A DNA stretch of 47,975 bases from Okeania sp. SIO2C9. GTDB taxonomy: Bacteria > Cyanobacteriota > Cyanobacteriia > Cyanobacteriales > Microcoleaceae. The stretch spans positions 1 to 47,975 of the forward strand of contig NZ_JAAHGO010000010.1 in the NCBI RefSeq assembly GCF_010672455.1. The letters are read 5' to 3'. This document shows, in pieces, positions 1,758 to 20,314 of this stretch. The notes under the pieces were generated by a model. It had not been told where the DNA came from and made no database searches. It was given only the letters and a program-made list of their open reading frames with translations. Each line of letters begins with the position of its first letter. The first letter of the stretch is position 1. The translations under genes and the position numbers were made by a program.

Positions 1758-2079
1758 AGTCTGCCTCTAGAAAAAAGTGAATAGAAAATGAAAAAAATAT
1801 GATAATCATTATCATAAAATATGATGATGGTATACTATTGCAAATACATATCAAAATTTAACAATTTCCCAGTTGAGGGGGAATTGAGAGTAGTCGTTTG
1901 GCTGCATAATGCTGCTAGATAAGACTTCCGGAGGGTTGCCAAGGGGAGCGACTGAATTTTTCAGTCTGCTCAGTTGCGACAACCTTCTGTTACAGATACA
2001 GACTGGGTTTGTTTGCCACGGTCATGTTCTGGACTTAATGAGATATTTTCTCGATTATATACTTATTCAGGAGACTTCA
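1758..2079. promoter_or_regulatory. Divergent znuC/znuA promoter region
   Basis: 322-bp gap between divergent genes. It holds the Zur palindrome (1800-1814) and a TATACT -10-like box at 1831-1836 reading toward znuA, so the palindrome would overlap that promoter's -35 region. The rest, about 1840-2068, is a long leader for znuA with no convincing gene. The frame is open upstream of the chosen znuA start, but that extension looks non-coding. Confidence 0.6.
1800..1814. promoter_or_regulatory. Perfect Zur-type operator
   Basis: TGATAATCATTATCA is a perfect 7-1-7 inverted repeat and extends to 8-1-8 (ATGATAAT C ATTATCAT). It matches the TGATAATNATTATCA consensus described for the zinc regulator Zur in Anabaena. 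Placed between the divergent metal-transport genes, it can control both. A Fur site is the alternative reading, because the half-site also resembles classical Fur boxes. Confidence 0.85.
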
Positions 2080-3069
2080 ATGGGTTTTTTATTTCAGTTA
2101 AAGCCTCGTTTTGCAGGCACTTTTGCTGCTTTAGCAGTTGTGGTTGGCTTGGCGGCTGGTGGCGGCACTGCTGAGACGATAGCCACCCAGAGGGAAGGGA
2201 GAGATGCCGATGAAATCGCCCAGGCAGATGGCGGGACTCCGGAGGTCGTCGCCTCCTACAGCGTTCTCTGCAGCATGGTGGAGCAAATTGCGAAGGGGGT
2301 GTTGGAACCCAATTGTCTGATCGACTATGAACAAGACCCGCACACATATCAAGCTAGGCCGTCTGACCGACGGGCGATCGAGGTAGCGGATGCCGTGTTC
2401 TACGCGGGCATGAACTTTGAGCCGGCGATTATTGAGATGGCGGAAGCAAGCACTACCCCAGCTCCCAAAGTGGCGGTACACGAAAAAGCCGTCCAGGATA
2501 TTATTGAAGTCGAGGAAGAACCCGATCCCCACATTTGGCATGACGTTGAAAACGGCATCCGCATGGTAGAGCAAATCGAGCAAACCCTGGTTAAAATCGA
2601 CCCCGACAATGCCGACACCTACGCCAGTAATGCTGATACCCTCACCAGTAAGTTGGAGCGCTTAGACGCCTGGATTCCCAAACAAATTGCTACCATTCCA
2701 AAGAATCAGCGCCGTCTGATTACCACCCACGATGCCATGAGCTATTACGCCAGAGCCTATGGTATGGTGGTCGAAGGTACCCTGCTGGGGCTCTCAACCG
2801 AGGAAGAACCCACAGCAGCCGAGGTTAAATCCCTATCCGAGAGGATTAAGGCGATCGGTGTCCCCGTTTTGTTTGCGGAGCTGACCGCCAACGACAAGGT
2901 GCTGGGTACCGTCGCCAATGAGGCGGGCGTGAATATTTCAGAGGATGTGCTGATTGCCGACGGCATCGGGGAAAAGGGCACTCCCGCAGGCAGCTATCAG
3001 GGTATGCTGGTTTACAACACCTGCAGCATTGTGACCGGCTTGGGGGGCACCTGTTCGAAGTTTGAGTAA
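2080..3069 (+). CDS. znuA: Periplasmic metal-binding protein, zinc type
   Basis: Cluster A-I solute-binding protein that delivers metal to the ABC permease. I chose the ATG at 2080 because an AGGAG ribosome site ends 6 bp before it and the product then starts with a signal-like segment (residues 1-30). The open frame back to 1909 is probably untranslated. Mature features are DPHTY (H88), DPHIWHD (H151), TTHDAM (H217) and LIADGIG (D294). In manganese proteins such as PsaA/MntC the third ligand is Glu in a SEGAF context. Here it is His, giving the His3-Asp set typical of zinc-binding members. The long His-rich loop of many ZnuA proteins is reduced to an acidic EVEEEPD stretch. Four cysteines (64, 79, 315, 325) could form disulfides. 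Confidence 0.88.
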   Translation: MGFLFQLKPRFAGTFAALAVVVGLAAGGGTAETIATQREGRDADEIAQADGGTPEVVASYSVLCSMVEQIAKGVLEPNCLIDYEQDPHTYQARPSDRRAIEVADAVFYAGMNFEPAIIEMAEASTTPAPKVAVHEKAVQDIIEVEEEPDPHIWHDVENGIRMVEQIEQTLVKIDPDNADTYASNADTLTSKLERLDAWIPKQIATIPKNQRRLITTHDAMSYYARAYGMVVEGTLLGLSTEEEPTAAEVKSLSERIKAIGVPVLFAELTANDKVLGTVANEAGVNISEDVLIADGIGEKGTPAGSYQGMLVYNTCSIVTGLGGTCSKFE

Positions 3070-3934
3070 GCCCGATGCTTCTGGGCCAAGCGGCCCAATC
3101 AGAAAAGTGTTAATCAGCTTTACAACAAGCGTAAAGCCAAGTACCAAAGTCATCTCAAAGGGAACAGAAAAAGCAGTCGGATATATTGAAGCATTGAGTT
3201 ATCATCGGAACCGTTTTGTCGATAATTATCTGTATAACACCAGTTTCTTAGTGCTTGAGTATTTAACCACAAATAATATTGGTACTGTAGTCATAGGAAA
3301 AAATGATAACTGGAAACAAGGTGCAAATATAGGCAAAAAAAACAACCAAAATTTTACCCAAATACCACATGAGAAGAAAGCCCAAGCAAATTACTTATAG
3401 AACCCCTGAGTGGTATCTCCCCAAAGGTTAGAGTTTTTGGCAAAGGAGTCAGGAGGACCGAGTCATATAAAATCCGGTTGAATACTTATCTTATGTTTAG
3501 GGGTGGGAAGTGTGAGGAGGGTGCGGAGTGTGGGGAGAAGGGGAGGTCGAGAGATTGGATTGAAGGCTCCGAAAGTGTGGATAGTATTATAAACATATAC
3601 TGTATAACCGGATTCTATATCAGGAGTCAGGAGATTGAAAAATAAAATATGGGAAAAAAGTTGAAATTTGCCCCCATCTCCCCAAACTTCCCAAACTTCC
3701 CACACTTCCCACACTTCCAATTTATAGAACCCATTTGGGTTCTATAAATGTCAGCTAGCAGGAATCAAGGTCATTGAAACAGAGGAAAGCTATACAAGCA
3801 AAACATCTGCCGTTGACCTTGAGGAACCAATTAAACGTGAAACTTATGGGGGTAAACGAGTCCAACGTGGTTTATTCAGGAGTGCAACTGGTATAGTCAT
3901 TAATGCCGATATCAATAGCAGTCTTCAAATATAA
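3070..3934 (+). pseudogene. tnpB remnant (C-terminal half), split by an insertion
   Basis: Remnant of an IS200/IS605-type TnpB. One frame reads NKRKAKYQSHLKG, RNRFVDNYL, NIGTVVIGKNDNWKQ and ends at QIPHEK near 3380. The same protein resumes after about 350 bp with CQLAGIKVIETEESYTSKT (from about 3749) and RGLFRSATGIVINADIN, ending in a stop at 3932-3934. The RuvC glutamate-region and zinc-finger-region segments are recognisable, but the N-terminal half is gone. The fragment begins right at the znuA stop codon, so an IS insertion and deletion event defines that edge of the transporter block. Confidence 0.85.
3391..3748. repeat. Composite MITE insertion inside the tnpB remnant
   Basis: Non-coding insert splitting the tnpB remnant. 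It contains an inner element at about 3465-3625 with imperfect inverted ends (ATATAAAATCCGGTT against AACCGGATTCTATAT), then tandem CTTCCCACA/AAACTTCCC-type repeats at 3675-3718. It ends in a perfect 12-bp stem hairpin at 3721-3748 (TTTATAGAACCC, loop ATTT, GGGTTCTATAAA). A degenerate copy of that hairpin occurs near 23865. Confidence 0.6.
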
Positions 3935-4091
3935 GATAAGAAATTCCCAGAGGCATTTACTGCCGTTTGCGCAGCATTCCGAAGGATGGGAATAGTGAGC
4001 TGCGCCGAGAGCGCCAGTATTGGTTAATCCAATATCAAGATAAAAGCTCAGATCGATTTTCTATAGTTTTATTCGTACGGTTGAAGTAAAT

Positions 4092-4577
4092 TTACAATTT
4101 TGTTGGGTTGGGAGCATCACCATACACTGTTTTCGGGTCAAAGGTTTTCTCCGTTTCGGTAAATATTAACTGAATTGGTTCCTGGGAATCAATAGCACTT
4201 TTTCCCGTAGGAATACAGCGATAAAAACAAGAACGATAACCTACATGACAACTAGCTCCCGAACCAGCTACTTTAACCTGCATCCACAGACAATCTTGGT
4301 CGTCATCAATAGCTAACTGCTGTACTTTTTGCACCAGTCCACTAGATTGACCTTTATGCCATAGCTGCTGACGACTGCGACTGTAATAATGAGCCTCTCC
4401 CGTTTCAATGGTTTTAACTAACGCCTCTTCGTTCATATAGCCGTGCATCAGCACTTCACCAGTGTTGACATCTGTGGTAACTACTGGAATCAAACCATTG
4501 GCATCAAATTTGGGGGCAAGTAACAAACCTTCCTCAACCTGTTCTACGGAATTCCGGGCGGTAAATAGGGGATTCAT
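4092..4577 (-). CDS. hisI: Phosphoribosyl-AMP cyclohydrolase paralogue, copy 1
   Basis: HisI opens the purine ring of phosphoribosyl-AMP in histidine synthesis. The 161-residue product shows the family signatures [14 protein letters not shown] (residues 63-76) and [12 protein letters not shown] (109-120). Canonical HisI has D-C-D-x-D, whose Cys is a zinc ligand. Here the motif is DDDQDC (91-96): Asp replaces that Cys, and a Cys sits four places later. The other two Cys (110, 117) remain. Cyanobacteria normally carry a fused HisIE, so a stand-alone HisI is likely a second gene. A perfect Zur-type palindrome lies 22 bp before the start codon, fitting a low-zinc backup enzyme. A near-identical copy lies at 14024-14509. 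Catalytic activity is not proven by sequence. Confidence 0.9.
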
Positions 4578-4599
4578 GTTAGCTAAATTTTGTAATGAA

Positions 4600-4614
4600 T
4601 GATAATCATTATCA
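4600..4614. promoter_or_regulatory. Perfect Zur-type operator before hisI copy 1
   Basis: TGATAATCATTATCA, identical over all 15 bases to the palindrome in the znu promoter, 22 bp upstream of the hisI start codon on the minus strand. The identity at two independent genes argues strongly for a shared repressor. Confidence 0.85.
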
Positions 4615-4635
4615 CATACAAAGCAGTGTTTAATT

Positions 4636-4895
4636 GGCGTTGCTGAAATGTAATGATAAATGTTGTAGAATTCAAAACATTATATGTCCGAAATGTAACT
4701 CCACACACACCAGGAAAAATGGCAGAAGACGTGGCCAACGGTTTTTCCAATGTCGAATATGTGGTCGTTAATTCGTTGAATACCCTAAGAGTCAACCCTA
4801 TTCACCACGGATGAAAGAACTTCGTCTTCTGCTGCACTATCTAAAATTTCAAACTCTTCCTACATAAGCATAGATCATTACTAATCAGCAACGCC
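4636..4895. mobile_element. IS1-derived MITE with intact target duplication
   Basis: 260-bp element with terminal inverted repeats GGCGTTGCTGA / TCAGCAACGCC. It is flanked by a perfect 8-bp direct repeat GTTTAATT (4628-4635 and 4896-4903), as expected for IS1-family insertion. Inside, on the plus strand (4685-4768), one frame encodes CPKCNST...KNGRRRGQRFFQCRICGR, the InsA zinc-finger N-terminus of IS1 transposases, then a stop. It is therefore an internally deleted, non-autonomous derivative. It sits between the 106-residue gene's stop codon and the hisI operator. Similar ends bound elements at 25541-25698 and 41980-42154. Confidence 0.85.
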
Positions 4896-4902
4896 GTTTA
4901 AT

Positions 4903-5223
4903 TTACCTAGAAACTTTGGCAGTCAGGCGATTGAGCAGTTGATTTAAATAGTCGGGCAGATGGGAATATTGATGGGGTTCATTCAAGTCTTGGCAATCTG
5001 TATTAAACTCGCAGTCTGGTAAAATTTTTCCCGTGTTGCCATCGACAAAAACATTCCAATATTTACCTATTAAACCGACAATACTAATGTTAATCATCCA
5101 CTCATTATTATCAAAACAGGTTGCACCTACAACCTCAAACAAGTGACGATGTTCTGGAAATACTTCCAGATTGGACAACAGATAATCAAGGGCTGTTTGT
5201 TTGATAGTAGTTAATTCTAACAT
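4903..5223 (-). CDS. Hypothetical protein, 106 aa
   Basis: Small soluble protein I do not recognise. The middle (EWMINISIVGLIGKYWNVF followed by VDGNTGKILPD) has the alternating strand and VDxxTGKI pattern of PepSY-like or Peptidase-propeptide-like folds. That is a structural impression only. The ATG at 5223 is clear. The stop codon coincides with the right-hand target duplication of the neighbouring MITE, so the element landed exactly at the gene end without truncating it. Confidence 0.6.
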   Translation of the reverse strand: MLELTTIKQTALDYLLSNLEVFPEHRHLFEVVGATCFDNNEWMINISIVGLIGKYWNVFVDGNTGKILPDCEFNTDCQDLNEPHQYSHLPDYLNQLLNRLTAKVSR

Positions 5224-5269
5224 ACAGGTGTAATCTTCAAGTATTTACCAGAAAATTTGGTTTAAAGCC

Positions 5270-5287
5270 TCGCCCATAAGCGGGCGA
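5270..5287. repeat. Hairpin, probable left end of a decayed IS200/IS605 element
   Basis: TCGCCC-ATAAG-CGGGCGA forms a stem-loop followed by a T-run, placed about 60 bp before the start of the decayed tnpB at 5350. This is the position of the subterminal hairpin in IS200/IS605 left ends, and it resembles the hairpin at 9592-9612. Confidence 0.5.
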
Positions 5288-5406
5288 CTTTTTAATTGAT
5301 TTTATGTCAATAAATATGTTATCCTAAATGTTAGCTTAAGAGTCAAATTATGAAAGCTATATTTAAGTATCGTAACCATTGCAGCAATCTTTGAATGATT
5401 TAAACC

Positions 5407-5456
5407 GTAGGGGCGAACGGCCGTTTGCTTCGCATAACTATCGTTAACGCCCCTAC
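5407..5456. repeat. Small palindromic element GTAGGGGCG...CGCCCCTAC
   Basis: Perfect 9-bp inverted ends (5407-5415 and 5448-5456) enclosing about 32 bp. It replaces part of the tnpB remnant. A related hairpin lies at 5853-5901. Such GTAGGGGCG palindromes are common dispersed repeats in cyanobacterial genomes. Confidence 0.7.
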
Positions 5457-5642
5457 AAACTTTTTCAGTTCGACAAAAGGCAAGAGAAAAGGTAGACCTG
5501 CTAAACCTCCTAAATTTAAAAGTAGAAAGTCAAAGCAAACTGCTAGGTTTACAAAGGGAGGATTTAAAGTTGGTCAACACAAAGTTTATTTGGCTAAGAT
5601 TGGAGAGCTGAAAATACTATGGTCAAGAGAGTTACCGAAAAA

Positions 5643-5778
5643 TTAAGGTATAAAGCCTCTCCATTCATGGAGAAAAAAGCGGTCGAGGGATGGCGAGGTC
5701 CCCTCGCCATATCCAATCGACCAAGAGAAGAAAAAAATTCCTTTTAATCCAATCCTCTTCTTTTCAAGGAGAGGTAAT
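5643..5778 (+). repeat. MITE family B, copy 1
   Basis: Begins AATTAAGG..AAAGCCTCTCC and ends AAGGAGAGGTAATT, giving imperfect inverted ends. The core is a nested hairpin: GGTCGA outside, GATGGCGAGG inside, loop, CCTCGCCAT, then TCGACC. Full copies are here and at 28095-28236, a degenerate inverted copy is near 23655-23790, and copies lacking the core are at 41802-41890 and 44003-44088. Next to it, 5781-5804, lies a short GCGCATTC tandem repeat. Confidence 0.75.
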
Positions 5779-5852
5779 TCGCGCATTCGCGCATTCGCGC
5801 ATTCTAAATTCTTGAACTACAGCTCCATCATCAGTAACAGTAATTAAAGATT

Positions 5853-5901
5853 GTAGGGGCGATTTCCTGCGGAATGCTGCGCAAACGCGAATCGCCCCTA
5901 C
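5853..5901. repeat. Palindromic hairpin inserted in frame in tnpB
   Basis: Perfect 11-bp inverted ends GTAGGGGCGAT (5853-5863) and ATCGCCCCTAC (5891-5901). In the tnpB frame it is read through as extra residues between SSVTVIKD and RYSLSFVVE, which are contiguous in intact TnpB proteins except for a short SAG-like linker. Confidence 0.75.
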
Positions 5902-6107
5902 TAGATATTCCTTAAGTTTTGTAGTAGAAATACAACCAGAAATCTTGCCTCAAACTGATAATTCAGTAGGTATAGATTTAGGTATCAAAACCTTTGCCAC
6001 ATTTAGCGATGGCACAAAGATTTAAGACCGCTCTTTAGGCTAATATTTAGATTTTTTAGTCTGATATTCTAGATTAGTAACGAAATAACTATATCCCCTA
6101 AGTAAAA

Positions 6108-6662
6108 ATGTTAACTATTGGAACACAAAAAAGCGATCGAATTAGCACAATTACTAATACAACTTGGGCTGAATATATTAGTTTAGATTTGCCCAGTAAA
6201 CGAGTTTCATTTCGCAATGGAGTTATTACTATCGTGTCCCCAGGACGTAACCATGAATTAATTGGTGATTATATTAGAGCAATTATTTGGGCTTACTGCC
6301 GTCAAAACAACCTTGCACTGTTTCCTTACAATCAAACTACTCTTAAGGAAGAAGGAAAAGAAGGGAAAGAACCTGATGTAGCTTACTGTTTTGAAATAGA
6401 CAAAGACAAGCCAGATTTGGCAGTAGAAATAAATCTAACATCAGGGAGTATCGACGATTTAACTAAATATCAATACTTAAAAATTCCTGAAGTTTGGCTA
6501 TGGGAAAACAATAAAATTAGATTTTTTGTTGATCGTGATTCAGGATATTTAGAATTAACAATAAGCAATTCTCTGCCTAACTTAAACAGCGATCGCGTGA
6601 CAACAATTGTTAATAGTTGTTTTGGTAAAAGTGTTTTAGAAGTAGAAAATTATTTCCGTTAA
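6108..6662 (+). CDS. Uma2-family (DUF820) putative nuclease
   Basis: 184-residue member of the Uma2/DUF820 family, a PD-(D/E)XK-type fold very abundant in cyanobacteria and of unproven role. Family landmarks are VSPGRNHELIGDYI near residue 45, EPDVAYCF (metal-site Asp), DLAVEINLTSG (Glu) and KYQYLKIPEVWLWE. The full domain is present with no frameshift. It ends 23 bp before moaB on the same strand, so co-transcription is possible, although no functional tie is known. The paralogues at 34-36 kb belong to a different subgroup. Confidence 0.85.
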   Translation: MLTIGTQKSDRISTITNTTWAEYISLDLPSKRVSFRNGVITIVSPGRNHELIGDYIRAIIWAYCRQNNLALFPYNQTTLKEEGKEGKEPDVAYCFEIDKDKPDLAVEINLTSGSIDDLTKYQYLKIPEVWLWENNKIRFFVDRDSGYLELTISNSLPNLNSDRVTTIVNSCFGKSVLEVENYFR

Positions 6663-6685
6663 AGCTTAATTAAAAAATAACAAAA

Positions 6686-7204
6686 ATGAATCAAAACGAA
6701 TCTTTACTACCCTTAAAAATCGCCGTCCTAACAGTTTCTGACACAAGAACCGAAGCCGACGATAAATCGGGTAAAATATTAGTAGATAATTTAACTACAA
6801 CAGGTCATTTATTAGCAGAAAAAACTATTGTTCCCGATAACATTTACCAAATTCGTGCTGTAGTATCTAGATGGGTTGCAGATGAATCTGTCCAAGTAAT
6901 TTTGACTACTGGTGGTACGGGAGTTACAGGACGAGATGGTACACCAGAAGCCATTAAACCACTCTTAGACAAAGAAATTCAAGGGTTTGGTGAGATATTT
7001 CGGATGATTTCCTATCAAGAAATTAAAACCTCTACCATTCAGTCTCGAACTTTGGCAGGCGTAGCTAACGGTACTTATATCTTTTGTTTACCTGGTTCTA
7101 GTGGTGCTTGTCAAACAGGATGGAGTATTATCAAAGAGCAACTTGATTCTCGTAATCGTCCTTGTAATTTGGCTCAATTGATACCGAGATTAACTGAAAC
7201 TTAA
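6686..7204 (+). CDS. moaB: Molybdenum cofactor biosynthesis protein MoaB
   Basis: 172-residue MoaB/Mog-type protein that acts on molybdopterin, the adenylylation or metal-insertion branch of molybdenum cofactor synthesis, in the cytoplasm. Key features are VLTVSDTRTEADDKSG at residues 15-30, the hallmark LTTGGTGVTGRDGTPEA near 74-90, and LPGSSGACQTGWSII near 138. Length and both pterin-site motifs are normal. A 39-bp near copy of its 3' end occurs at 13365-13403, a relic of an old duplication. Confidence 0.93.
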   Translation: MNQNESLLPLKIAVLTVSDTRTEADDKSGKILVDNLTTTGHLLAEKTIVPDNIYQIRAVVSRWVADESVQVILTTGGTGVTGRDGTPEAIKPLLDKEIQGFGEIFRMISYQEIKTSTIQSRTLAGVANGTYIFCLPGSSGACQTGWSIIKEQLDSRNRPCNLAQLIPRLTET

Positions 7205-8079: not shown

Positions 8080-8198
8080 AGTTATTCTAAGTATTATTAA
8101 CAACTAACAATATTTTAGCTCTGTATAATAAGATCATCAAATAGAAGGCCATCAGCAGGACCAAAAACTCGCCAAGTCTTTCCACTACATGGGAATTA

Positions 8199-9705: not shown

Positions 9706-12700
9706 ATGTTGGTTTTTGAGTTCAAAGCATACGGAAAATTAAACCAGTACTTGGCAGTTAATGAAGCAATCCGTACCGCTCAGTTTGTCCGTGTGCGACG
9801 TGAAAGTCGCGTGTAAGGCGCATCAGCGCTAGTAATTGAGGAACTACTCCTCTAGAGGACTCTTTCCCTCTATTCCTATGTAAAAGGGTCACGAACCCCG
9901 CCTACTTTGGGAGTAAGTAATGAAACCACAAGGAATGCAAGGCACAAAAGCGAGATATACGGACAACTCAGTTGATATATCCCGCAAAGGAAAATTCCGA
10001 AAGGGTTAACGAAAGTGAATCATCATAAGTTCCGTGAACTGTAGCAGGCGAAATGAGTTGATACGCCCGACCAAAAGGTAAGTAGGTAAGTCATTGACGT
10101 GCGTACTTCAATGACGAAGGAGTATAATCCCTACCGGAATATAGATGGAACCCAATCCGAATGAATATTACACACGTGAAACACGGTAAGCCCCACTGGC
10201 TCTTGGACTAGATGAAAATCCAAGTAGGTTGACCGCAAGGAAAACGGATATGCCGAGGGGGTAAAGGATGCCAGAGAAAGCAAAAGCCAAGGGTAATGCC
10301 TTGGATAGGGGTTCAAGATTTGCCCTACACCAAAAGGTGGCAGACTTCTGGTAGGTCTTCAACGATAAAATCAAAGTAAAGGAATTGAACCGACGTGGAA
10401 GATAGGGTCAGCAATGACATCGGAACGAAGGAACCGTTAAATACATGGGAATCCATCGATTGGAAGCTTGTGAATAAACGGATTAAAAACCTGAGACGGA
10501 GAATTTATCGAGCAACTCAGAATGGTCAGTGGAACAAGGTTCGCAGCCTTATGAAGCTGATAATAAGAAGCTACTCCAATTTACTGTTGTCAGTGCGAAG
10601 AGTAACTCAAGAAAATGAGGGGAAAAATACGGCTGGCATTGATGGTCAGACGGTAAGTACACCCGCACAAAGAGTAAAACTCGTCAAAGAAATGCAGGAA
10701 TACGCCCTATGGAAAGCTCACCCTGCTAGAAGGGTATATATTCCAAAAGCTAATGGAAAACAAAGACCATTAGGGATTCCAACAATCACAAATCGCATAG
10801 CACAAGCAGTACTGAAGAATGCACTCGAACCTAACTGGGAAAGCCGAATGGAAGCCAGCAGTTATGGATTCAGACCCGGTAGAAGCTGTCACGATGCCAT
10901 ACAACACACCTGGACACGCCTTAATAAACAAGGAAATGACAGGTGGGTATTAGATGCAGATATCAAGGGCGCATTCGACAACATTAGCCACAACTTCATA
11001 CTCAAAACTATTGGGGAATTACCAGGTGCAGAGTTAATTAAGCAATGGCTAAAAGCAGGTTATGTAGAATCCGAGATATTCCACGAAACGGAAAGCGGGA
11101 CACCACAAGGGGGAATAATTTCACCCTTATTAGCTAATATCGCACTGGATGGAATCGAACAATTCCTCAGTCAATTCAAGAAAAGACAAGGGAAAAACAA
11201 ATCTCCTAGAGCGCCCAAATATGGGTTCGTTAGGTATGCTGACGATTTCATTATTACCGCCGAAACAAAAGAGGATATTGAGGAAATAATCCCCTCGGTA
11301 AAAGAACTCCTCAAAACAAGAGGACTGGAATTAAATGAGGATAAAACCAATATTGTTCATATAGAACAAGGATTCAACTTTCTGGGGTTCAATGTCCGTC
11401 ACTTCCAGGGAAGCTGTCTAGTAAAACCTCAAAAGGAAAAAGTAAAACTATTCCTTAGAGAAATACGGAAATGGCTCAAAACTAACAAACACGCCAAGCC
11501 TGAAGCAGTTATCCGATACCTAAACCCCCGAATCAGGGGGTGGGGAAACTACTATAAACACGGGGTAAGTAGCAAAACGTTCAGCTATGTTGACCACCAA
11601 ATTTTTCAAGCAATCTGGAAATGGTCATTAAGCAGACACCCAAACAAGGGAAAGAAATGGGTAGCGGGGAAATACTTTATCACTGTTAACGGCAGAAAAT
11701 GGAATTTCCACGCAATAGTCAACGATGGAAATGGGAAAAAGAAAAACTTAATCCTTACGAAACTCGGAGACTTACCAATAACCCGTCACGTCAAAGTCAA
11801 GGGAACAGCATCCCCCGACGACCCCAAACTAACCGAATATTGGGAAAAACGCAGAACCAACTACGGGAAAACATACTTTGCTAGAGGTTCAAAGCTATTT
11901 AAGGTAGCCCAAAACCAAAGCTGGAAATGCCCAATATGCGGTGAACACCTGTTTAATGGAGAAAAGCTACAAACCCACCATAAAGTGCAAGTAAAAGATG
12001 GAGGCACCAATAAGGAGGACAACCTAGTCCACCTACACCTCACCTGCCACAAGCACGTACACACGGGTAAAGGTTCTGAGATTTTGAAGGCTTGAGCCGG
12101 ATGATGGGAAACTGTCAAGTCCGGTTCTTAGGGGGGAGAGATGCGGCGACGTATGCTCTCCTACCCGACAATAGCTGCATTCGCTTATGGATGGACAATA
12201 AGCGAACGGGTAAGAATGATTTGCAAAAATATTGCTCTGTACTTGCCAAGGAATTTCCCTTTGCGAATGAACTCAACTCAATGGCTAGACAAGCCAGCGC
12301 AGAAAGAGCATGGTCATCTATTAATCGTTTTTATGAAAACTGTAAAAAAGGAGTAGCTGGTAAAAAGGGGTTTCCAAAATTTCAAAAAAATTGTCGTACT
12401 GTTGAGTATAAAACTACGGGTTGGAAGTTAGCACCTGACCGTAAGTCAATAACTTTTTCTGATAAGAAAGGCATTGGACGCTTAAGGTTAAAAGGTACTC
12501 GTGATTTGCACTTTTTTCAAATCAAGCAAATTAAACGAGTTCGATTGGTAAAACGTGCAGATGGTGTTTATGTTCAATTTTGTATTGATTCAGAACGTCG
12601 AGAAGATATCACGCCAACGGGGAATACCGTAGGTTTAGATGTTGGATTAAAGGAATACTATACCGACTCAAACGGCGAGGTCGTCAAAAATCCAACTTTT

Positions 12701-13300
12701 TTGCGTAAGGCCGAAAAAGTCCTTAAACGGGATCAACGTCGAGTATCAAAGAAAGAAAAAGGTTCAAACAATAGAGGCAAAGCTAGACATATTTTAGGTA
12801 AGCGCCACCTTAAAATAAGTAGGCAACGTAAAGACCATGCTGTGAAGTTAGCACGGTGCGTAGTTCAGTCTAACGACTTGATAGCCTATGAAGATTTGAG
12901 AATCAAAAATATGGTGAAAAATCACTGTCTAGCTAAGTCTATTAATGATGCGTCCTGGTATCAGTTCCGTGTATGGCTTGAATATTTTGCAAAAGTATTT
13001 AAGCGTGTCACGGTTGCTGTTAATCCTCAATATACCAGTCAAAATTGCTCTAGCTGTGGAGAAGTTGTTAAGAAAACATTGTCTACCAGAACTCATGCTT
13101 GTAAGTGTGGGTGCGTGTTGGATAGAGATGAAAACGCAGCTATCAATATTTTGCATCGTGGACTTAGTACGGTAGGGCATACCGGAACTACTGCGCTAGA
13201 CGCAGAAAACGCTTGGGGAGATGAAACCTCTACTCAGCTTGGCGCAAGCTTGGTTGAGCAAGTATTGTCGCGGAACCAAGAATCCCCGTCTCGTGATTAG
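9706..13300 (+). CDS. tnpB: RNA-guided nuclease TnpB, interrupted by a group II intron
   Basis: Exon 1 is 9706-9792 (29 codons, [11 protein letters not shown]...TAQFVR; ribosome site AGGAGG at 9693-9698). Exon 2 is 12170-13300 (NSCIRLWMD onward). Joining them gives an uninterrupted 405-residue TnpB. The RuvC-like triad is present: D186 (GLDVGL), E270 (YEDLRI) and the Asp of DRDENAA (347-349). The zinc finger C322-x2-C325...C340-x-C342 is also present. TnpB is a guide-RNA-directed DNA nuclease; the guide RNA normally derives from the 3' end of the gene and the right end of the element. The stop codon lies inside the right-end hairpin. Without splicing, only a 29-residue stub plus intron-encoded residues would be made, so expression depends on the intron. 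Confidence 0.9.
10395..12095 (+). CDS. Group II intron reverse transcriptase/maturase with HNH endonuclease
   Basis: 566 residues, GTG start. Order: RT0-RT7 (RPLGIPT near 124, [14 protein letters not shown] near 155, catalytic [13 protein letters not shown] near 185, [14 protein letters not shown] near 236, YADD at 281-284), maturase/thumb domain X (about 340-440), then a C-terminal HNH nuclease ([20 protein letters not shown]). The protein helps splicing and drives retrohoming: target-DNA cleavage by HNH and cDNA synthesis by RT. All catalytic residues seen are intact. It lies wholly inside the intron and ends just before domain V. Confidence 0.95.
12094..12128 (+). ncRNA. Group II intron domain V
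   Basis: 35-nt hairpin starting GAGCCGGATGATGGG with a GAAA-type tetraloop region and ending GTCCGGTTCT. It holds the AGC catalytic triad at the expected position. It begins two bases before the end of the maturase stop codon. Confidence 0.85.
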
Positions 13301-13364: not shown

Positions 13365-13403
13365 AAATTTGGCTCAATTGATGGCGAGATTGACTGAAAC
13401 TTA
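13365..13403 (+). pseudogene. moaB 3'-end relic
   Basis: AATTTGGCTCAATTGATGGC and the following bases repeat the last 13 codons of moaB at 7166-7204 with a few changes, including the stop (NLAQLMARLTET). Only this tail remains. It shows that the stretch upstream of the HbpS-like gene derives from a second copy of the moaB neighbourhood. Confidence 0.75.
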
Positions 13404-13521
13404 GAAATAATAAAATGGTATTGTCTAATAGCCTGTAATTTGCTAGTGTACTTAAAGTCTGAATATATAACCCAATCAGCTAAATTAACAGCTATCTAAG
13501 TCAAGTCCAATGGAGGGATTA

Positions 13522-13917
13522 ATGGTTACATTAGAAGATGCCAGAAGAGTAATTAGTGCCGCCGAAAAAAAAGCACTCGAAATTGGTCAACCAATGAATA
13601 TAGCAGTAGTGGATGGGGGAGGAAATCTGGTAGCCCATGTACGAATGGATGGAGCTTGGATCGGAAGTATCGATATCTCCATTAAAAAAGCGTACACTTC
13701 GCGGGCGTTCAATCTGGCTACTAAAGATTTAGCCGAACAGAGTCAATCAGGAGGACAATTTTTTGGGATTCATGCCTCTAACAATGGCAAAATCATGATT
13801 TTTGCTGGGGGAATACCCCTTGACAGTGAAGGACAAGTAGTGGGGGCAATTGGAGTTAGTGGGGGGTCGGGAGAGCAAGACCATGCCGTAGCCCAAGCTG
13901 GAGCCGCCGTATTTTAG
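13522..13917 (+). CDS. HbpS/GlcG-family protein (DUF336)
   Basis: 131 residues from the ATG at 13522, preceded by GGAGGG; an ATG at 13510 is possible but overlaps that ribosome site. The protein has the family core: LEDARRVISAAEKKA, MNIAVVDGGGNLVAHVRMDGA, SIDISIKKAYTSRAF, and the Gly-rich C-terminus VGAIGVSGGSGEQDHAVA. Family members include the heme-binding, redox-linked HbpS and GlcG. They form small oligomers, often with unclear cofactor. It is complete and sits convergent to hisI copy 2. A role in metal or heme handling is only suggested by context. Confidence 0.85.
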   Translation: MVTLEDARRVISAAEKKALEIGQPMNIAVVDGGGNLVAHVRMDGAWIGSIDISIKKAYTSRAFNLATKDLAEQSQSGGQFFGIHASNNGKIMIFAGGIPLDSEGQVVGAIGVSGGSGEQDHAVAQAGAAVF

Positions 13918-14023
13918 TTGTTGAAACGCCATTAGAAATGGATAAGGTAAAATCAGGCTTAGAGGAGTCTATTTCTTCTCACTTGATTCTACCTTCATAG
14001 TTACAAGTGATTGGGAGTGTAAA

Positions 14024-14509
14024 TTATAATTGTGTTGGGTTAGGGGCATCACCATAAACGGCTTTTGGCTCAAATGTTTTCTCGGTTTCAGTAAAAGTTA
14101 ACTGTAGTGGTTGCTGGGAAGAAACAACACTTTTGCCCGTAGGAATACGGCGATAAAAACAAGAACGATAACCCACGTGACAACTAGCCCCCGAACCAGC
14201 TACTATAACCTGCATCCAGAGACAATCTTGGTCATCATCAATTGTTAACTGCGCTACTTTTTGCACAAGTCCACTGGATTGACCTTTATGCCATAGTTGC
14301 TGACGACTGCGACTGTAATAGTGAGCTTCTCCCGTTTCAATGGTTTTAACTAAAGCCTCTTCGTTCATATAAGCATGCATCAGCACTTCACCCGTGTTGA
14401 AATCGGTGGTAACGACTGGAATCAAACCATTGCAGTCGAATTTGGGAGCAAGGAACAAACCTTCTTCTACTTGTTCTACTGAAGTTCTGGCAGTAAATAG
14501 GGGATTCAT
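14024..14509 (-). CDS. hisI: Phosphoribosyl-AMP cyclohydrolase paralogue, copy 2
   Basis: 161 residues, near-identical to copy 1 at 4092-4577. It has the same [14 protein letters not shown] and [12 protein letters not shown] signatures and the same altered DDDQDC metal motif in place of D-C-D-x-D. Copy-specific changes are conservative (e.g. FDCNG for FDANG, FYRRI for FYRCI) and there is no frameshift, so both copies seem under selection. A Zur-like operator lies 21 bp upstream, slightly degraded in its right half. The 3' end of a feoB-like gene lies just upstream, pointing to a former cluster with the gene at 17492. Confidence 0.9.
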
Positions 14510-14530
14510 AGTGGCTCAACTTTTCAATTT

Positions 14531-14545
14531 TGATAATCATTATAC
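14531..14545. promoter_or_regulatory. Degenerate Zur-type operator before hisI copy 2
   Basis: TGATAATCATTATAC: left half perfect, right half 5 of 7. It is placed 21 bp before the hisI start, almost the same spacing as the perfect site at copy 1. Its weaker symmetry may mean weaker repression. Confidence 0.65.
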
Positions 14546-14562
14546 TATAAAAGGAATTCCCT

Positions 14563-14748
14563 TTAGCTAATTAACAGTCCACCCCAAGCAAGTAATAGAG
14601 AAAAAAAGATTGCAGCGATCGCTTCATTGCCAAAATTCCCCACAAAAAGAACCAGATCGATCCCCATACGTTCAAGGGCAATTCGATCTTTAGTTTCCCA
14701 TTGGTCGTGAACATCTCCCACGACTGCAATTTTTACTTTTGCTTTCAT
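14563..14748 (-). pseudogene. Chimera of metallophosphoesterase head and feoB-like tail
   Basis: 61-codon frame. Residues 1-42 (MKAKVKIAVVGDVHDQW, ALERMGIDLVLFVGNFGNEA) match the start of a cyanobacterial calcineurin-like metallophosphatase, with the GDVHDQW metal motif. Residues 43-61 (AIAAIFFSLLLAWGGLLIS) repeat the C-terminus of the FeoB-like protein at 17492. The join falls on a HIP1 octamer GCGATCGC, and the DNA from there to 14562 is nearly the same as 17491-17545. It is a recombination scar, not a functional gene. Confidence 0.8.
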
Positions 14749-15130: not shown

Positions 15131-15144
15131 TGCTTTAAATTTTT

Positions 15145-15699
15145 TTACTTTTTCACATTAATACAGTTTTGTGGCGTATCTTGGCCACTGACTATAAAAT
15201 TTTGGCAAGTCATTATCAGGTAGTTGTTCTGTCCTAAAGTGTAACCAATGAGAGCTACAAAGAGAACAATTCCGACGAGACCAATAATCAATCTACGTTT
15301 AAGAAGAAGAATCTGCGGATTGGTAAAATGGAAAAAGACATAGACTACATAGGGTAAAGAAATAGTAAGCACCAGAATACCTACTATATGAATCCAGACA
15401 TCCTGTATTTGTCCAATTTCTGATGGGTCATCAATAATTTTAAGGATCAGCCAGATAGTTGGTAAGGAGAGTATGAAATACCCCCACGACTTTTGGCCAG
15501 GCAGAATGTTCTTTTGTACGACTATAGTTATTAAAAGAATACTCAAGGAAAATAGCCATATTGATAGAATATGTCCCAGGAAAATAACTCCGAAAGCACC
15601 AAGATTAAAACTAAGATCCCAAGCATAGTACACAAGCCCAAGGATCGGACCAACTAAAGTAGTTATTTTGCTTTTTGATATTTCTTGCTCTGTGTTCAT
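15145..15699 (-). CDS. Hypothetical multi-pass membrane protein
   Basis: 184 residues with about five hydrophobic segments (around residues 12-30, 35-60, 70-88, 103-125, 135-158) and a C-terminal extramembrane tail with two cysteines (MTCQNFIV, TPQNCINV). The start ATG at 15699 is clear. I recognise no family. It survives intact between two decayed insertion sequences. Confidence 0.6.
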   Translation of the reverse strand: MNTEQEISKSKITTLVGPILGLVYYAWDLSFNLGAFGVIFLGHILSIWLFSLSILLITIVVQKNILPGQKSWGYFILSLPTIWLILKIIDDPSEIGQIQDVWIHIVGILVLTISLPYVVYVFFHFTNPQILLLKRRLIIGLVGIVLFVALIGYTLGQNNYLIMTCQNFIVSGQDTPQNCINVKK

Positions 15700-15758
15700 A
15701 TCGCTTACTTTGAGTCTGTTTTTGTAGAGTCGAAATGGCGTTGGAGAATGCGTAATGT

Positions 15759-16120
15759 TTAAGCAGAAACTGGCACAGTTTTAAATCTCAAGTAATGTAC
15801 GAGTAAACGAATCGAATACTTTAACATTGTCAAAGACTTAGAATAGCAGAGAGTTTTTCGATGAAGTCTGGCTAAATAATGTCTTAGACGAGTATTTTCT
15901 CCTTCAACGCGGGTCATATAAGTTTTGCTAACAAGATGGTCTTCTGGTTCAATTTTTCGGTTGAAGTCCCAGTATGAGCTCATCCTCACACCATACTTCT
16001 ATATCTGCCTGTGGGTATTTACTTTGAAGTTTGGCTAACTCAAGAATGATTTGAAATTTTTGATGAACAAGATTTTGGATTTGAGAATTGCTAGAATGAT
16101 TAATATTAGGTTTTTTTTAG
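15759..16120 (-). pseudogene. IS630 / IS1 transposase remnants joined
   Basis: The upstream part (about 15985-16120) reads FQIILELAKLQSKYPQADIE then VWCEDE, the first DDE region of IS630-type transposases. The downstream part (15759-15985, another frame) reads MTRVEGENTRLRHYLARLHR then KTLCYSKS, the C-terminus of an IS1-family InsB. Neither is complete. The overlap suggests one decayed element truncated by another. Confidence 0.7.
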
Positions 16121-16146
16121 TTAAAGCCTAAGGCTTTGTTGCAGTA

Positions 16147-16611
16147 TCATTCCATAATGTGCAACTCCGAAAACATAGGATAACGGGTTAACACTTTTGC
16201 GATTTCTTTTGCCTTGCCGTTAAGTAGATAGTGTAAGTCATTACCTGGTAGTCGATCGGCTCTGAGAACGCCACCTTTCATTTCAATTTGGTCACTCGTT
16301 GCAACACAATACTGATTAAAGTCTTGCCCTGAGGCTGTTAGTGGCCGAAACTGCCAAAAGTCTTCTTTCTTAGTAGTTTCATCCGTGTAGTTTACACTCA
16401 AATCAGTTATATATCCACTCATATCGCTGTCGGCACCATTTATAAATGCCTGAGCTGAGCATGTTCCACCGCGAATCACTAAACCTGCATACGATGGTTG
16501 GGAAAAACCAATTACGCTAATGGTGACTACAAGCATAACTATAATCATGCTTCGCAAGTAACTCGAAACCCAGGTTGGAATATTTGTCATAACCTTAGTT
16601 ATTCTATTCAT
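16147..16611 (-). CDS. Hypothetical secreted protein, 154 aa
   Basis: Begins with a signal peptide: basic start, hydrophobic core MIIVMLVVTISVIGF, then the cleavage-like PSYAG near residue 42. The mature part has two cysteines (C51, C97), likely a disulfide, and no domain I recognise. Its start codon overlaps the stop codon of the upstream fragment as ATGA, so translational coupling is possible. Confidence 0.6.
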   Translation of the reverse strand: MNRITKVMTNIPTWVSSYLRSMIIVMLVVTISVIGFSQPSYAGLVIRGGTCSAQAFINGADSDMSGYITDLSVNYTDETTKKEDFWQFRPLTASGQDFNQYCVATSDQIEMKGGVLRADRLPGNDLHYLLNGKAKEIAKVLTRYPMFSELHIME

Positions 16612-16844
16612 TGAATTTTTACCTCTTTGATAATGATATTGAATTGTTCCTCTTTGATTAGAGGTTTAGACAGCATGTGCAGGATAACTCCCTCGAGCAA
16701 CATATTATCTAGCACTTGTGGTCCTACACCGAATTTTGGCGTGTGATTGTGCAAATACTGGACAATCTGCTGATTGAGTAGCTTCCCTGTAAACTGCTTC
16801 TGTAAATAAGACGATTTCCAACAAGAATTTCTGAATTTTTTGAC
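16608..16844 (-). pseudogene. 5'-truncated coding fragment upstream of the secreted protein
   Basis: 78 codons open without a usable start before the internal Met. The sequence (YLQKQFTGKLLNQQIVQYLH, LDNMLLEGVILHMLSKPLIK) looks like real protein but I cannot name it. The stop overlaps the next start (ATGA at 16608-16611), typical of an operon, so the fragment probably lost its front end. Confidence 0.45.
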
Positions 16845-16950
16845 TTAAAATTTTTTTTCTAGGGGTAGTGGGTCAGCAAGGTTAAAACAGCTCAATCTAA
16901 ACTCTAAGCGATCGCTTCATTACTCAATTGTTGCTTCGAGCAATCTTAAC

Positions 16951-17362
16951 TTACACTGACTGAGCGATCGCCGCTGTAGCTTTCAGATCAGCCCCCTGCC
17001 CCAGATGCTGTAGCTTGGGATAACAACTCCGGTAATTCCCCTCGCTCACAAACAACCACATAATACGAGTACGCCGATTCTGGGGCGTTGCGGGACAAGG
17101 AGCATAAGCATCAGTGTAAACGATCAGAGCATCATAATCCCGGTGTTCCTCCAGATAGGCCAAAACTGGGCTAAAATTCGTCCCTCCCCTTCCCGTTAAC
17201 TGAACCTCCCGCTGGGCGCGACTGAACGTCATCACGTCAGTTGTAATCTTCTTTAAACATCTTAAAGGTATCTGAAGCATATTGAACTTGTGCGATCGTA
17301 CTGTCAATACTGGCAATCATTCCTAAAATTGCCAAGAACCCAGAATAGATGATTTGCTTCAT
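16951..17362 (-). pseudogene. VWA-like (DUF2201) remnant fused to a foreign leader
   Basis: 16951 to about 17240 encodes RGGTNFSPVLAYLEEHRDYD, DALIVYTDAYAPCP and MWLFVSEGNY, the C-terminal VWA-like part of cyanobacterial DUF2201 putative metallopeptidases. The upstream part is lost. In another frame, 17237-17362 gives a 41-codon ORF with a signal-peptide-like start (MKQIIYSGFLAILGMIASID), presumably the head of some other gene. The join is a deletion scar. Confidence 0.65.
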
Positions 17363-17491
17363 GATTACTGTCTTCCTTGCCTTCACATAAAGCTCTAGTT
17401 TAGCCGTTCGCTTACTCGCAGCAGGAAAAGAAAATTACGCTATCTGGGTGCTCAATGCCCCTTTACTGGAAGGCTATGTTCGACTTAGACT
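17363..17491. other. Short non-coding gap
   Basis: A plus-strand open stretch (17391-17491, ENYAIWVLNAPLLEGYV) may be the tail of another lost gene. No start codon and no recognisable family. Confidence 0.3.
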
Positions 17492-19141
17492 TTAGCTAAT
17501 TAACAGTCCACCCCAAGCAAGTAATAGAGAAAAAGCGATTGCGGCGATCGCCTGTCTACTTAACAGCAATAAGGCAAATCGAAGAGACTGTTCTCGCGTA
17601 ATAGTTAACAGAGTAACTAAACAAGGTAGCAATACTCCTGCTATATACACCCCAGTCAAAATCTGCAATGGAGTTAACATAGCCAAGGTTTCTGGTTCGG
17701 CAAATAATAGCAGTCCATCTTTGCGAATAGAAGCTAAAATAATAGGCAATGAGGCTTCAGGGGGTAAATTAAACCATCCCATTAAAGGATTGATAATATT
17801 GGCTAAAGTTGCGATCGCTCCTAACCAATTCAACACAGAAGCAATAACGGTAATAACTAAAAAGATGGGAATTGCATTGAACAAAAATTGATTAATAGTT
17901 GACTTAGTTTCGCGCCAAATTACTAACCCATGAGGAAATTCTAAAAATGCTCTTCCTTCGATTACTAGGGGATTATGATTCGATTTAGCTGTAGGGGAAG
18001 AAATCATGTAGGTATATATCAAGGTAGTTGCGGTTAGATACAGCAGGTAAGGAATTATCAAGTAAGGTAACGAAGCCGCACTAAACACCCCTAAAGTTGC
18101 GCCAAACTGATAAGAACAAGCGGAACCAAAAGCGATCGCCGAAATACAAGTTCCTCTAGAACAACTAGAACAAGCACGGGTACTAACCACCGCAGGAACA
18201 TTACACCCCATACCCATAATTACTCGCACTAAATCCCGTCCCGATAACCCAAACGGACGGAGTAAAGGATTGAGAGCAATAGTAATTCGTTCTATTAACC
18301 CACTAGCTTTATATGCCCCCAAAAATAGGGCATAGAGAATTACTGTGGGCATCGCCCAAATAAACAGCAACGGACTCATAGTTATCAGTCCATACTGACC
18401 TATGAGTATTTCTCTTAACAAGATTGGGAGTTGGGATAAAAGTTTAATAATGGGAGCGACCGCATTTTGGACTATAGAATCTGCTAAAGTCGCAAAGGAG
18501 TTAGCACCCCAGACAGCAATAATCGCAGGAATAAGTAATAGAGCGATCGCCAATAACCAGCCCAGTCGAGGATGTTCTAACAGGGTTGGTTGGGGTTGAA
18601 TATACCAGCCAGCTCTTGTAGGAATCCATTGCGCGGGAAAAGGATGAGGTTCTTGCAGAGAAGCCAAAAGATAGTCTTTTTGTTCTATTGTGAGGTGGCG
18701 AGCATCTACAGTGACAATGTTCAGGTTAGAAGTTTCCCTCCATTCCCGAACCACTTGTTGAGTATGAACCGTCGATAATACCTTATCCCAGAAAGTAATC
18801 GCCACAACGCCCCGTTTATCTGCTACTAAAGGCAGTAGATCTGCCAAATCTCGATCTACGTCGGTTGCCTTGACTATCAGTAGCACGGTGTCATTTTCTT
18901 GTAGCTGTCTTAAAGCTTTCTTAGTAGTTACGCTGTCGGAACGATAGAGAATTCCAGGAGTATCAATAAAGGTATAGGCTTCAGATTGATAAGTGTCACA
19001 AGTCACTGTAGAACCGCGAAAATTGGCACTATAGGGAGTCTGCCCTGTAAGAGCCGCAATTAGTTGGGATTTGCCCGTACTCTCTTTCCCAATAACTACA
19101 ATACAATCGCGTTCTAATTTTGACGGCGTAAAAATATTCAT
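17492..19141 (-). CDS. FeoB-like GTPase/transporter, divergent
   Basis: 549 residues from the ATG at 19141, 8 bp after the flavoprotein stop; a TTG at 19162 would overlap that gene. The N-terminal GTPase-like domain has Walker A GKESTGKS (18-25) and DTPG (60-63); the G4 motif is poor (TFWDK). From about 195 on, two membrane blocks of the FeoB/nucleoside-gate type follow. The pore motif GMGCNVPA (309-317) leads into a Cys cluster, C313, C324, C327, C332. FeoB moves ferrous iron. This member is shorter, lacks FeoA and has a Zur-like box before its operon, so zinc or another divalent metal is possible. The last 19 codons are duplicated at 14562-14612. Confidence 0.8.
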   Translation of the reverse strand: MNIFTPSKLERDCIVVIGKESTGKSQLIAALTGQTPYSANFRGSTVTCDTYQSEAYTFIDTPGILYRSDSVTTKKALRQLQENDTVLLIVKATDVDRDLADLLPLVADKRGVVAITFWDKVLSTVHTQQVVREWRETSNLNIVTVDARHLTIEQKDYLLASLQEPHPFPAQWIPTRAGWYIQPQPTLLEHPRLGWLLAIALLLIPAIIAVWGANSFATLADSIVQNAVAPIIKLLSQLPILLREILIGQYGLITMSPLLFIWAMPTVILYALFLGAYKASGLIERITIALNPLLRPFGLSGRDLVRVIMGMGCNVPAVVSTRACSSCSRGTCISAIAFGSACSYQFGATLGVFSAASLPYLIIPYLLYLTATTLIYTYMISSPTAKSNHNPLVIEGRAFLEFPHGLVIWRETKSTINQFLFNAIPIFLVITVIASVLNWLGAIATLANIINPLMGWFNLPPEASLPIILASIRKDGLLLFAEPETLAMLTPLQILTGVYIAGVLLPCLVTLLTITREQSLRFALLLLSRQAIAAIAFSLLLAWGGLLIS

Positions 19142-19149
19142 CTTATTTT

Positions 19150-20271
19150 TCAACAAACACAATCGTCATTACAGCAAGAAAGGTCATCTAAGAACAAACC
19201 TTGTCGGCGATAGGCTTCCAAGGTCGTTGTATCGATTCCCATACGTTGAGCGATCGCATTTCCTACCACAGCAAATCGCTGCCGAAATTTATAAATGAAA
19301 CAAAAAATTATATTGCCGTGACGCACTGAAGGGCCGACGACAAATAATCCTGGAGTTAGGGTGGACTCATCTTCTTGAGTCAGAGCTGCATAGCCATTTG
19401 ACCAGTCAAATAGAGGTGCGATTTGTTCTAAACTGCTATTAAACCCCGTACAGAGAATTGGCGGTGTAGAACTAAACCACTCTTCGTACTCGCTCTCCAC
19501 CACATATCCTTTTTTTACTGCTTTGACTGCTTCAATGTACTTGTCTCCAATTAGTTCGATCCGACCCATAGAATAAGCTACTTCTAAACGTTTTATACTA
19601 TAAGGAGACAAAGAAACACTAGGATCTGAGTCTAAGTTTAACCAGCTACTATTGCGATCGATTAACTTGACTTTTTTCCCTAATGCTGCCAAAACTGACG
19701 CTGCATCTACACCGCTTTCATAGCCTCCGACAACTACAAATTCCTCCCCCTCAAGCTCTGTCCAAGAACGTATTTGGGAATTATGAATACACAAATCTGC
19801 CCCTGGAAAAGGATTAAGATTGGGATATTGATACTCTCCTGCTGCCCAAATAACAAACTGTGTTCGCAACTCGCCTTTAGAAGTTTCCAAGACAAAGCCT
19901 TTGCCTTGAGGTAAAGCTGCAATAGTTTTCACATTTGTCTCGGTTTTTATAGGTAGTTGAAAATGCTCTGCTACAGTCTCCAAATACAGGGCATATTCTT
20001 TCCCTGAAAGATGTTCCTTTCTGAAACTGAGGGCAGGAGAAGTATTTAAAACTACTGCATTGAGATCCAGCAATCCAAAACCATGACTGGGAAACGACGG
20101 CGTAATGAATCCCATTTCTTCTGGCCAACGGCTAAAAGAAGCCCCGATTTGATGTCGTTCTAAAATGACAAAATTTTCAATTCCTAAATCTTTTAAGACT
20201 ACTCCACAGCCAATTCCAGCAGCCCCAGCCCCCACAATTACAACTTCAAAACGATCGTTAGTTTTGTTCAC
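19150..20271 (-). CDS. CzcO-like FAD/NAD(P)-binding oxidoreductase with Cys-rich tail
   Basis: 373 residues, GTG start. N-terminal FAD site VVIVGAGAAGIGCG (9-22), ATG-like AAGEYQYPN near 135, a second dinucleotide site VVVGGYESGVDAA near 168, and GLFVVGPSVRHG near 318. The protein belongs to the group I flavin monooxygenase / CzcO-like family, whose biological substrate is mostly unknown. The last residues are SCCNDDCVC, four cysteines in nine residues, a likely metal-binding tail. It is first gene of a two-gene unit with the FeoB-like transporter, 8 bp apart, under a Zur-like palindrome, so a redox or metal-handing role linked to the transporter is a fair guess. Confidence 0.8.
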   Translation of the reverse strand: MNKTNDRFEVVIVGAGAAGIGCGVVLKDLGIENFVILERHQIGASFSRWPEEMGFITPSFPSHGFGLLDLNAVVLNTSPALSFRKEHLSGKEYALYLETVAEHFQLPIKTETNVKTIAALPQGKGFVLETSKGELRTQFVIWAAGEYQYPNLNPFPGADLCIHNSQIRSWTELEGEEFVVVGGYESGVDAASVLAALGKKVKLIDRNSSWLNLDSDPSVSLSPYSIKRLEVAYSMGRIELIGDKYIEAVKAVKKGYVVESEYEEWFSSTPPILCTGFNSSLEQIAPLFDWSNGYAALTQEDESTLTPGLFVVGPSVRHGNIIFCFIYKFRQRFAVVGNAIAQRMGIDTTTLEAYRRQGLFLDDLSCCNDDCVC

Positions 20272-20299
20272 CAGCAGACAATCTCGAATAGATACTTTA

Positions 20300-20314
20300 T
20301 GATAATAATAATCA
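20300..20314. promoter_or_regulatory. Zur-like operator before flavoprotein-feoB unit
   Basis: TGATAATAATAATCA differs from TGATAATNATTATCA at one position outside the central base. It is located 28 bp before the GTG start of the flavoprotein gene. Being AT-rich, one such match could be chance; the location and the sites at 1800, 4600 and 14531 make it credible. Confidence 0.65.

Follow-up and report, generated by a model that had tools for sequence, protein, structure and literature searches.

FeoB is known as the ferrous-iron pump of bacteria, and genes encoding Gate-GTPase proteins are named either after it or as 'nucleoside recognition domain-containing protein'; the available portions of PMC5786701 and PMC13192273 likewise treat FeoB as an iron system. 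The Zur regulon described for cyanobacteria (Anabaena, Synechococcus WH8102, the RegPrecise motif) includes Znu, COG0523, thrS2 and folE2 in the accessible part of PMC6103462, and in WH8102 a single box is common to the divergent znuC and znuA genes (PMC9337993, available in part). The DNA analyzed here, a stretch of 47,975 nucleotides from Okeania sp. SIO2C9 (contig NZ_JAAHGO010000010.1; hereafter the window), carries the same box motif, and its divergent znuC and znuA likewise share one box. Unlike the described regulon, it also holds two box-preceded copies of hisI, and a further box precedes a gene pair encoding a CzcO-like flavoprotein and a FeoB-like protein. We place at roughly 0.6 the probability that this pair consists of a nucleotide-driven importer of metal, with zinc as the likeliest cargo, and a redox partner, both repressed by Zur.

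Clusters resembling the surroundings of this pair have been described by Haas et al. 2009 (PMC2770081, available in part), who reported Zur-linked COG0523 clusters with zinc-enzyme paralogues (HisI, CysRS, ThrRS and gamma-carbonic anhydrase, gamma-CA), one of them on the Klebsiella plasmid pLVPK, and who noted that the HisI paralogues keep their zinc ligands. As the pLVPK cluster had already been predicted to be Zur-regulated, part of the gene context was known beforehand. In the available portion of the main text of that paper, however, the words 'feob', 'flavoprotein' and 'permease' do not occur, 'FeoB' is likewise absent from the main texts of PMC6103462 and PMC10957091 on the cyanobacterial Zur regulon, and a search of open-licence papers returned none on a zinc-linked FeoB-like protein.

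Zur-type boxes and the company of the pair

The flavoprotein gene (19150..20271, minus strand, GTG start, 373 amino acids) and the feoB-like gene (17492..19141, minus strand, 549 amino acids) are separated by 8 bp (19150/19141) and compose one operon, which is preceded by a doubled Zur-type box (20300..20320, with sites beginning at 20300 and 20306). The site at 20300, TGATAATAATAATCA, departs by one mismatch from the 7-1-7 consensus TGATAATNATTATCA. A mismatch-free sequence, TGATAATCATTATCA, occurs both at 1800..1814, between znuC and the divergent znuA, and at 4600..4614, before hisI-1, while the site before hisI-2 (14531..14545), TGATAATCATTATAC, carries two mismatches. A motif scan recovered all four positions given in the preliminary description of this DNA (1800, 4600, 14531 and 20300), and the measured distances of 42, 22, 21 and 28 bp (to znuC, hisI-1, hisI-2 and the flavoprotein gene, respectively) agree with its statement that the boxes stand 20-45 bp ahead of start codons. 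When the window is judged instead by the published cyanobacterial Zur motif (16 positions, as quoted in the available part of PMC9337993), matches with at most two mismatches of 16 are found only at 1793, 4593 and 20299, and the sequence before hisI-2 carries four mismatches.

In the window as a whole, 14 sites with at most three mismatches to the consensus are found; 100 shuffled versions averaged 6.98 such sites, and each had fewer than 14. A scan of the whole genome (10.88 Mb, 317 contigs) returned four exact sites, two of them in the window and the remaining two inside open reading frames (ORFs), as well as 28 sites with at most one mismatch and 286 with at most two, of which three and four, respectively, fall within the 18.5-kb span of the boxes, versus 0.05 (Poisson P ~2e-5) and 0.49 (P ~0.0016) expected. 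The preliminary description had named a random scatter of equally good matches as counter-evidence, and on this point the outcome is divided: among the 26 of the 28 sites that were examined, seven precede zinc-linked genes (three in the window and four on another contig, C252) and nine lie inside ORFs of at least 95 amino acids. As many matches lie inside ORFs, the motif alone is unable to carry the claim, and the case rests on comparison. Motif counting as proof was rejected, the reversed control being commoner than the motif at up to two mismatches genome-wide (431 versus 286 sites, and hence no genome-wide enrichment). This result favors the view that the boxes are chance matches whose clustering is coincidental; set against the position and conservation of the boxes and the fall of three of 28 sites within the span, that view is scarcely credible.

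Comparison was made across 388 cyanobacterial genomes of the order, in which FeoB-like orthologues are found in 36, the flavoprotein in 38 and both in 35, counts that use differing thresholds for the two proteins and ignore kinship of the genomes. Stretches were fetched for all 36 FeoB-like loci, some on contigs of only 3-8 kb, and the box test covered 34 genomes, G291 and G460 being dropped at contig ends; the region tested was that before the flavoprotein gene, or before feoB-like where the flavoprotein lay off the stretch. Directly before the tested gene, the published Zur motif (three mismatches of 16 at most) is present in 22 of these 34 genomes, and a matrix built from 27 sites at other zinc genes, none of them near the pair, gives p <=0.006 in 23 of 34, spanning 13 of 21 genera. 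Of the 12 genomes with no near box, five have the pair behind the boxed head of a longer gene run (G217, G227, G230, G473, G159), another two (G321, G384) have their box farther off, 170-177 bp upstream, and a further two (G436, G500) encode the flavoprotein on a different contig, where a box stands 28-31 bp ahead of the gene. In genomes that have the two genes apart or divergent (G462, G297, G473), boxes accompany both parts. The check suggested at the outset, whether the pair keeps its box in relatives, is therefore answered in the affirmative: directly in 22 of 34 genomes, and by operon, distance or other contig in nine of the 12 others.

Recurrent neighbors of the pair are COG0523, HisI, CysS, ThrS, FolE, a CcmM-like gamma-CA, parts of Znu, DUF1636 and a metallophosphoesterase-like family; FeoA is absent among the labelled neighbor clusters, no profile search for FeoA having been made. 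At least one zinc-starvation gene lies near the pair at 25 of 36 loci, versus 0 of 8 canonical-FeoB and 1 of 14 arbitrary loci, and promoter boxes with a matrix score of at least 15 are present at 26 of 36 FeoB-like loci versus 0 of 8 and 0 of 14, a comparison that is partly circular in that zinc-gene list and matrix alike were derived from FeoB-like loci. The published motif escapes this circularity: counted with two mismatches at most, it has 80 sites in the 463 kb of FeoB-like loci, none in 108 kb of canonical-FeoB loci and none in 220 kb of arbitrary loci. Relaxing the limit to four mismatches brings considerable background, as the 220 kb of arbitrary loci then contain 42 sites. As a separate observation, in four genomes (L087, L114, L115, L118) Zur-type boxes are followed by both a P-loop protein (no Pfam family over cut-off) and a metallophosphoesterase.

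The pair extends well beyond these cyanobacteria. A tblastn search of plasmids found the FeoB-like protein in 530 records (499 from Klebsiella and 20 from Escherichia; further hosts are Haloferax, Halocatena, Haloarcula, Pantoea, Paenibacillus, Acaryochloris and Staphylococcus) and the flavoprotein in 536, and gene context was taken from eight regions that were opened. In Pantoea the order is thrS-CA-folE2-dksA-COG0523-repressor-cysS-flavoprotein-feoB-like-zigA, where CA is carbonate dehydratase and the cluster contains two repressors, and TGTTATGTTATAACA, which we take to be an E. coli-type Zur half-palindrome pair, lies 24 bp before the flavoprotein gene. In Haloferax, COG0523 is divergent to a run of flavoprotein, S14, feoB-like, hypothetical and hisI genes, an arrangement that recurs without hisI in Haloarcula and Halocatena. 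On two Acaryochloris plasmids, one of which has feoB-like, doubled boxes stand ahead of the flavoprotein gene; on conjugative plasmids of this genus (L168, L174), several Fur-family regulators and zigA surround the pair, one with a doubled box of its own. In Paracoccus, the order aztABCD-repressor-COG0523-flavoprotein-cysS is found without feoB-like, and among Planctomycetes the FeoB-like gene occurs in 5 of 392 genomes.

These loci bear on a reading in which the protein would be an ordinary iron FeoB, with Fur acting at the box at 20300 and the pair importing iron. The protein does belong to the FeoB superfamily, Fur and Zur boxes look alike, the 7-1-7 palindrome being the Bacillus Fur consensus too, and the genome holds five FUR-family genes. 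The neighbors of the pair, however, are zinc genes, which none of the eight canonical-FeoB loci share, and the published Zur motif fits. Moreover, the genome's own two canonical FeoB genes, one with FeoA upstream, have no box of up to two mismatches within the 10-kb stretches fetched. In Paenibacillus, where the order is COG0523-rpsN-flavoprotein-feoB-like and rpsN is an S14 paralogue, an exact TCGTAATTATTACGA, presumably the Bacillus-type Zur box, opens the operon 37 bp before COG0523, and a one-mismatch version precedes rpmG. In Bacillus, the Zur box differs from the Fur box, and the exact Bacillus-type Zur box in Paenibacillus therefore provides the strongest argument in these data against an iron role. 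Following the canonical-FeoB control loci and the Paenibacillus box, the iron reading was set low, and we consider it very improbable.

Several observations nonetheless weigh against the Zur reading of the boxes. Firstly, the two hisI boxes lie within aligned homologous copies (527 columns, boxes included, with 86.5% DNA identity) and are therefore not independent sites, and the flavoprotein box of this genome, with a matrix score of 14.7, lies inside the 13.1-18.3 range of sites that have no known zinc gene. Secondly, the sequence directly before the tested gene shows at least six mismatches to the published motif in 10 of 34 genomes, no box is accounted for in three of the 34 (G255, G328, G439), and of three genomes with the flavoprotein and no FeoB-like gene only one has a box within 200 bp; the genomes compared are, in addition, related and hence not independent. 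Thirdly, weaker matrix matches (10.8-14.4) occur in six of 10 canonical-FeoB loci. Lastly, no palindrome was found before the haloarchaeal pairs, and the pair of the planctomycete Schlesneria has COG0523 ahead, yet no cyanobacterial-type box. Weighed together with the conservation described above, these points leave it very probable that Zur controls the flavoprotein/feoB-like pair, as judged from sequence comparison.

The FeoB-like protein and its flavoprotein partner

The window protein shares with FeoB (TIGR00437, PF02421, PF07670) an N-terminal small GTPase, two Gate domains (PF07670, in two stretches), the motif GCNV[PV] and cysteines at positions 313, 342 and 507. At the same time it scores 110.1 bits against TIGR00437, and a planctomycete homologue 114.9, versus the 315.65 required. 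An alignment of 18 FeoB-like with 10 canonical rows (two of the 10 being the same gene), in which four planctomycete copies were extended and included, has GCNV[PV] in 18/18 FeoB-like rows, C313 and C342 common to FeoB, C507 in 9/10 canonical rows and C332 in 12/18 FeoB-like ones. Where FeoB reads TRTLENxRDR, the first gate of the FeoB-like proteins reads TRxCSxCxR, such that a CxxC (C324, C327) is present in 18/18 FeoB-like and 0/10 canonical rows; RKDG of the second gate is likewise constant in the 18 and found in 0/10 canonical rows, where FeoB has AKE; and the G4 motif is T[FH][WA]D in 18/18, versus NM.D in 10/10 canonical rows, in place of the NxxD of FeoB. In a tree, the FeoB-like proteins form a clade of their own with 100/100 support, its long branches flagged by the program, and the zinc-gene neighbors set them apart further.

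Two further points weigh against the importer reading: as G4 is T[FH][WA]D and not NxxD, GTP specificity is uncertain, and the structure models are weak, with a mean predicted local distance difference test (pLDDT) score of 64.2 and 58.0 (13 and 12 sequences). Foldseek matched the predicted structure to small GTPases, with NFeoB in the first ten, and returned no match for its membrane part.

The partner flavoprotein belongs to PF13738 (Pyr_redox_3, CzcO-like; residues 11-313, E=4.7e-101) and has the Cys-rich tail SCCNDDCVC. The tail cysteines are invariant in 12/12 aligned flavoproteins, and all eight plasmid flavoproteins read have such a tail, SYC replacing SCC in one. The protein also matches PDB 3d1c, a flavin-containing putative monooxygenase, over residues 8-373 (E=5.4e-75), and 3d1c has an SCC...C.C tail.

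Two further explanations turn on these features. Under the first, the pair would not import metal but would mobilize or redistribute intracellular zinc, or sense membrane metal, the flavoprotein freeing zinc from thiolates by redox chemistry; the Cys-rich-tail flavoprotein always lies near FeoB-like (both in 35 genomes) and G4 is altered, as this view would have it, while two Gate domains and a FeoB-like membrane architecture indicate transport, and we regard it as quite improbable. Under the second, a Zur-repressed importer would bring in another metal (Co, Fe, Mn) that replaces zinc in starved cells. Repression by Zur does not dictate which metal is carried, and nickel-type transport genes (by annotation) lie near some copies; the extra CxxC of the first gate, however, suits an ion that is soft and bound by thiols, as zinc is, and a substitute metal appears unlikely. 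The FeoB-like protein is likely to import metal, and zinc is its most likely cargo.

Other genes of the window and the wider regulon

The preliminary description had also proposed that the window holds a physically clustered zinc-starvation locus including the FeoB-like/CzcO-like pair, a proposal supported by box conservation, gene company and controls, although its count of five genes was too low: znuB, znuC, znuA, two hisI copies, the flavoprotein and feoB-like genes make seven. A znuB-like ABC permease (142..1020, minus strand; PF00950, E=2.9e-72) and a znuC-like ABC ATPase (1038..1757, minus strand; PF00005) lie opposite a znuA-like zinc-binding protein (1909..3069, plus strand, start perhaps 2080; PF01297, E=3.4e-74), whose best NCBIfam match is AztC, below cut-off. 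As the transporter as a whole is nearest to the AztC/AztB and Mnt models of NCBIfam, all with scores below cut-offs, the metal is not settled by family.

The hisI-1 gene (4092..4577, minus strand) encodes a phosphoribosyl-AMP cyclohydrolase (PRA-CH) paralogue that belongs to PF01502 and exceeds the NF000768 cut-off, and hisI-2 (14024..14509, minus strand; PF01502) is its 86.5% DNA-identical copy by self-comparison. Both keep the stretch CHVGYRSC, whose residues we take to be HisI zinc ligands. A third hisI, with a weaker box (score 12.1), is found on contig C252, and a fourth, longer PRA-CH gene on C1. The earlier suggestion that the locus was scattered by mobile elements fits what lies between the two hisI copies, namely a group II intron reverse transcriptase and an IS605 OrfB-type transposase (10395-13300), as well as a 62-bp direct repeat beside hisI-2 (14561..14622) of the feoB-like 3' end (17490-17551; 95% identity). 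This repeat suggests that feoB-like and hisI-2 were once adjacent, as in some relatives, until ~2.9 kb was inserted. An HbpS-like heme-degrading-type protein (13510-13917) adjoins hisI-2, and two further genomes have a member of the same family close to the pair. Elsewhere, the region 34251-47975 contains many long internal repeats, for example 34251-35407 with 34853-36004 (87%).

The regulon extends beyond the window to further boxed zinc-linked genes on contig C252, and of the FUR-family genes one, on C223, presumably resembles FurB/Zur. On C252, a doubled box (61826-61846) precedes a lysine/ornithine-monooxygenase-like FAD protein, a box at 70210 precedes by 262 bp a COG0523 gene that is followed by folE, and a one-mismatch box at 173706 stands 92 bp ahead of metH, which Pfam identifies as a B12-dependent methionine synthase. 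The metH-like gene of three relatives (L094, L095, L097) is also preceded by boxes with 1-2 mismatches, and on this evidence MetH may be part of the Zur regulon.

Proposed mechanism and significance

When zinc is plentiful, zinc-loaded Zur on the boxes at 1800, 4600, 14531 and 20300 would block transcription, and as zinc falls the boxed genes would be released. ZnuABC would then bring zinc in, the extra HisI copies would sustain histidine synthesis under zinc shortage, and the flavoprotein/feoB-like operon would provide a second uptake route across the inner membrane. In this route the FeoB-like protein would carry zinc inward (or, in its stead, another soft divalent ion) in a nucleotide-driven or nucleotide-gated manner, with the CxxC of its first gate among the metal ligands, and the flavoprotein, with its Cys-rich tail, may act as a reductase partner that keeps these thiols reduced or passes the metal on.

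That the pair recurs next to zinc-starvation genes in archaea as well as in widely differing bacteria suggests, at the level of sequence, an uncharacterized GTP-driven zinc uptake. To the broader proposition, that a separate branch of the FeoB superfamily, present in Bacteria and Archaea and often plasmid-borne, is a GTP-driven, Zur-controlled zinc importer whose flavoprotein keeps or passes on the metal with its Cys-tail, we give even odds. Were it true, a nucleotide-driven route of zinc uptake that differs from zinc transporters of the ABC, ZIP and P-type kinds would be added, and many annotations would be corrected, including those of the copies on 499 Klebsiella plasmid records. The zinc-linked branch spans cyanobacteria, Proteobacteria, Firmicutes and haloarchaea, and its two extra cysteines, set in an otherwise conserved motif, would offer a direct handle on how the gate of FeoB selects its metal.

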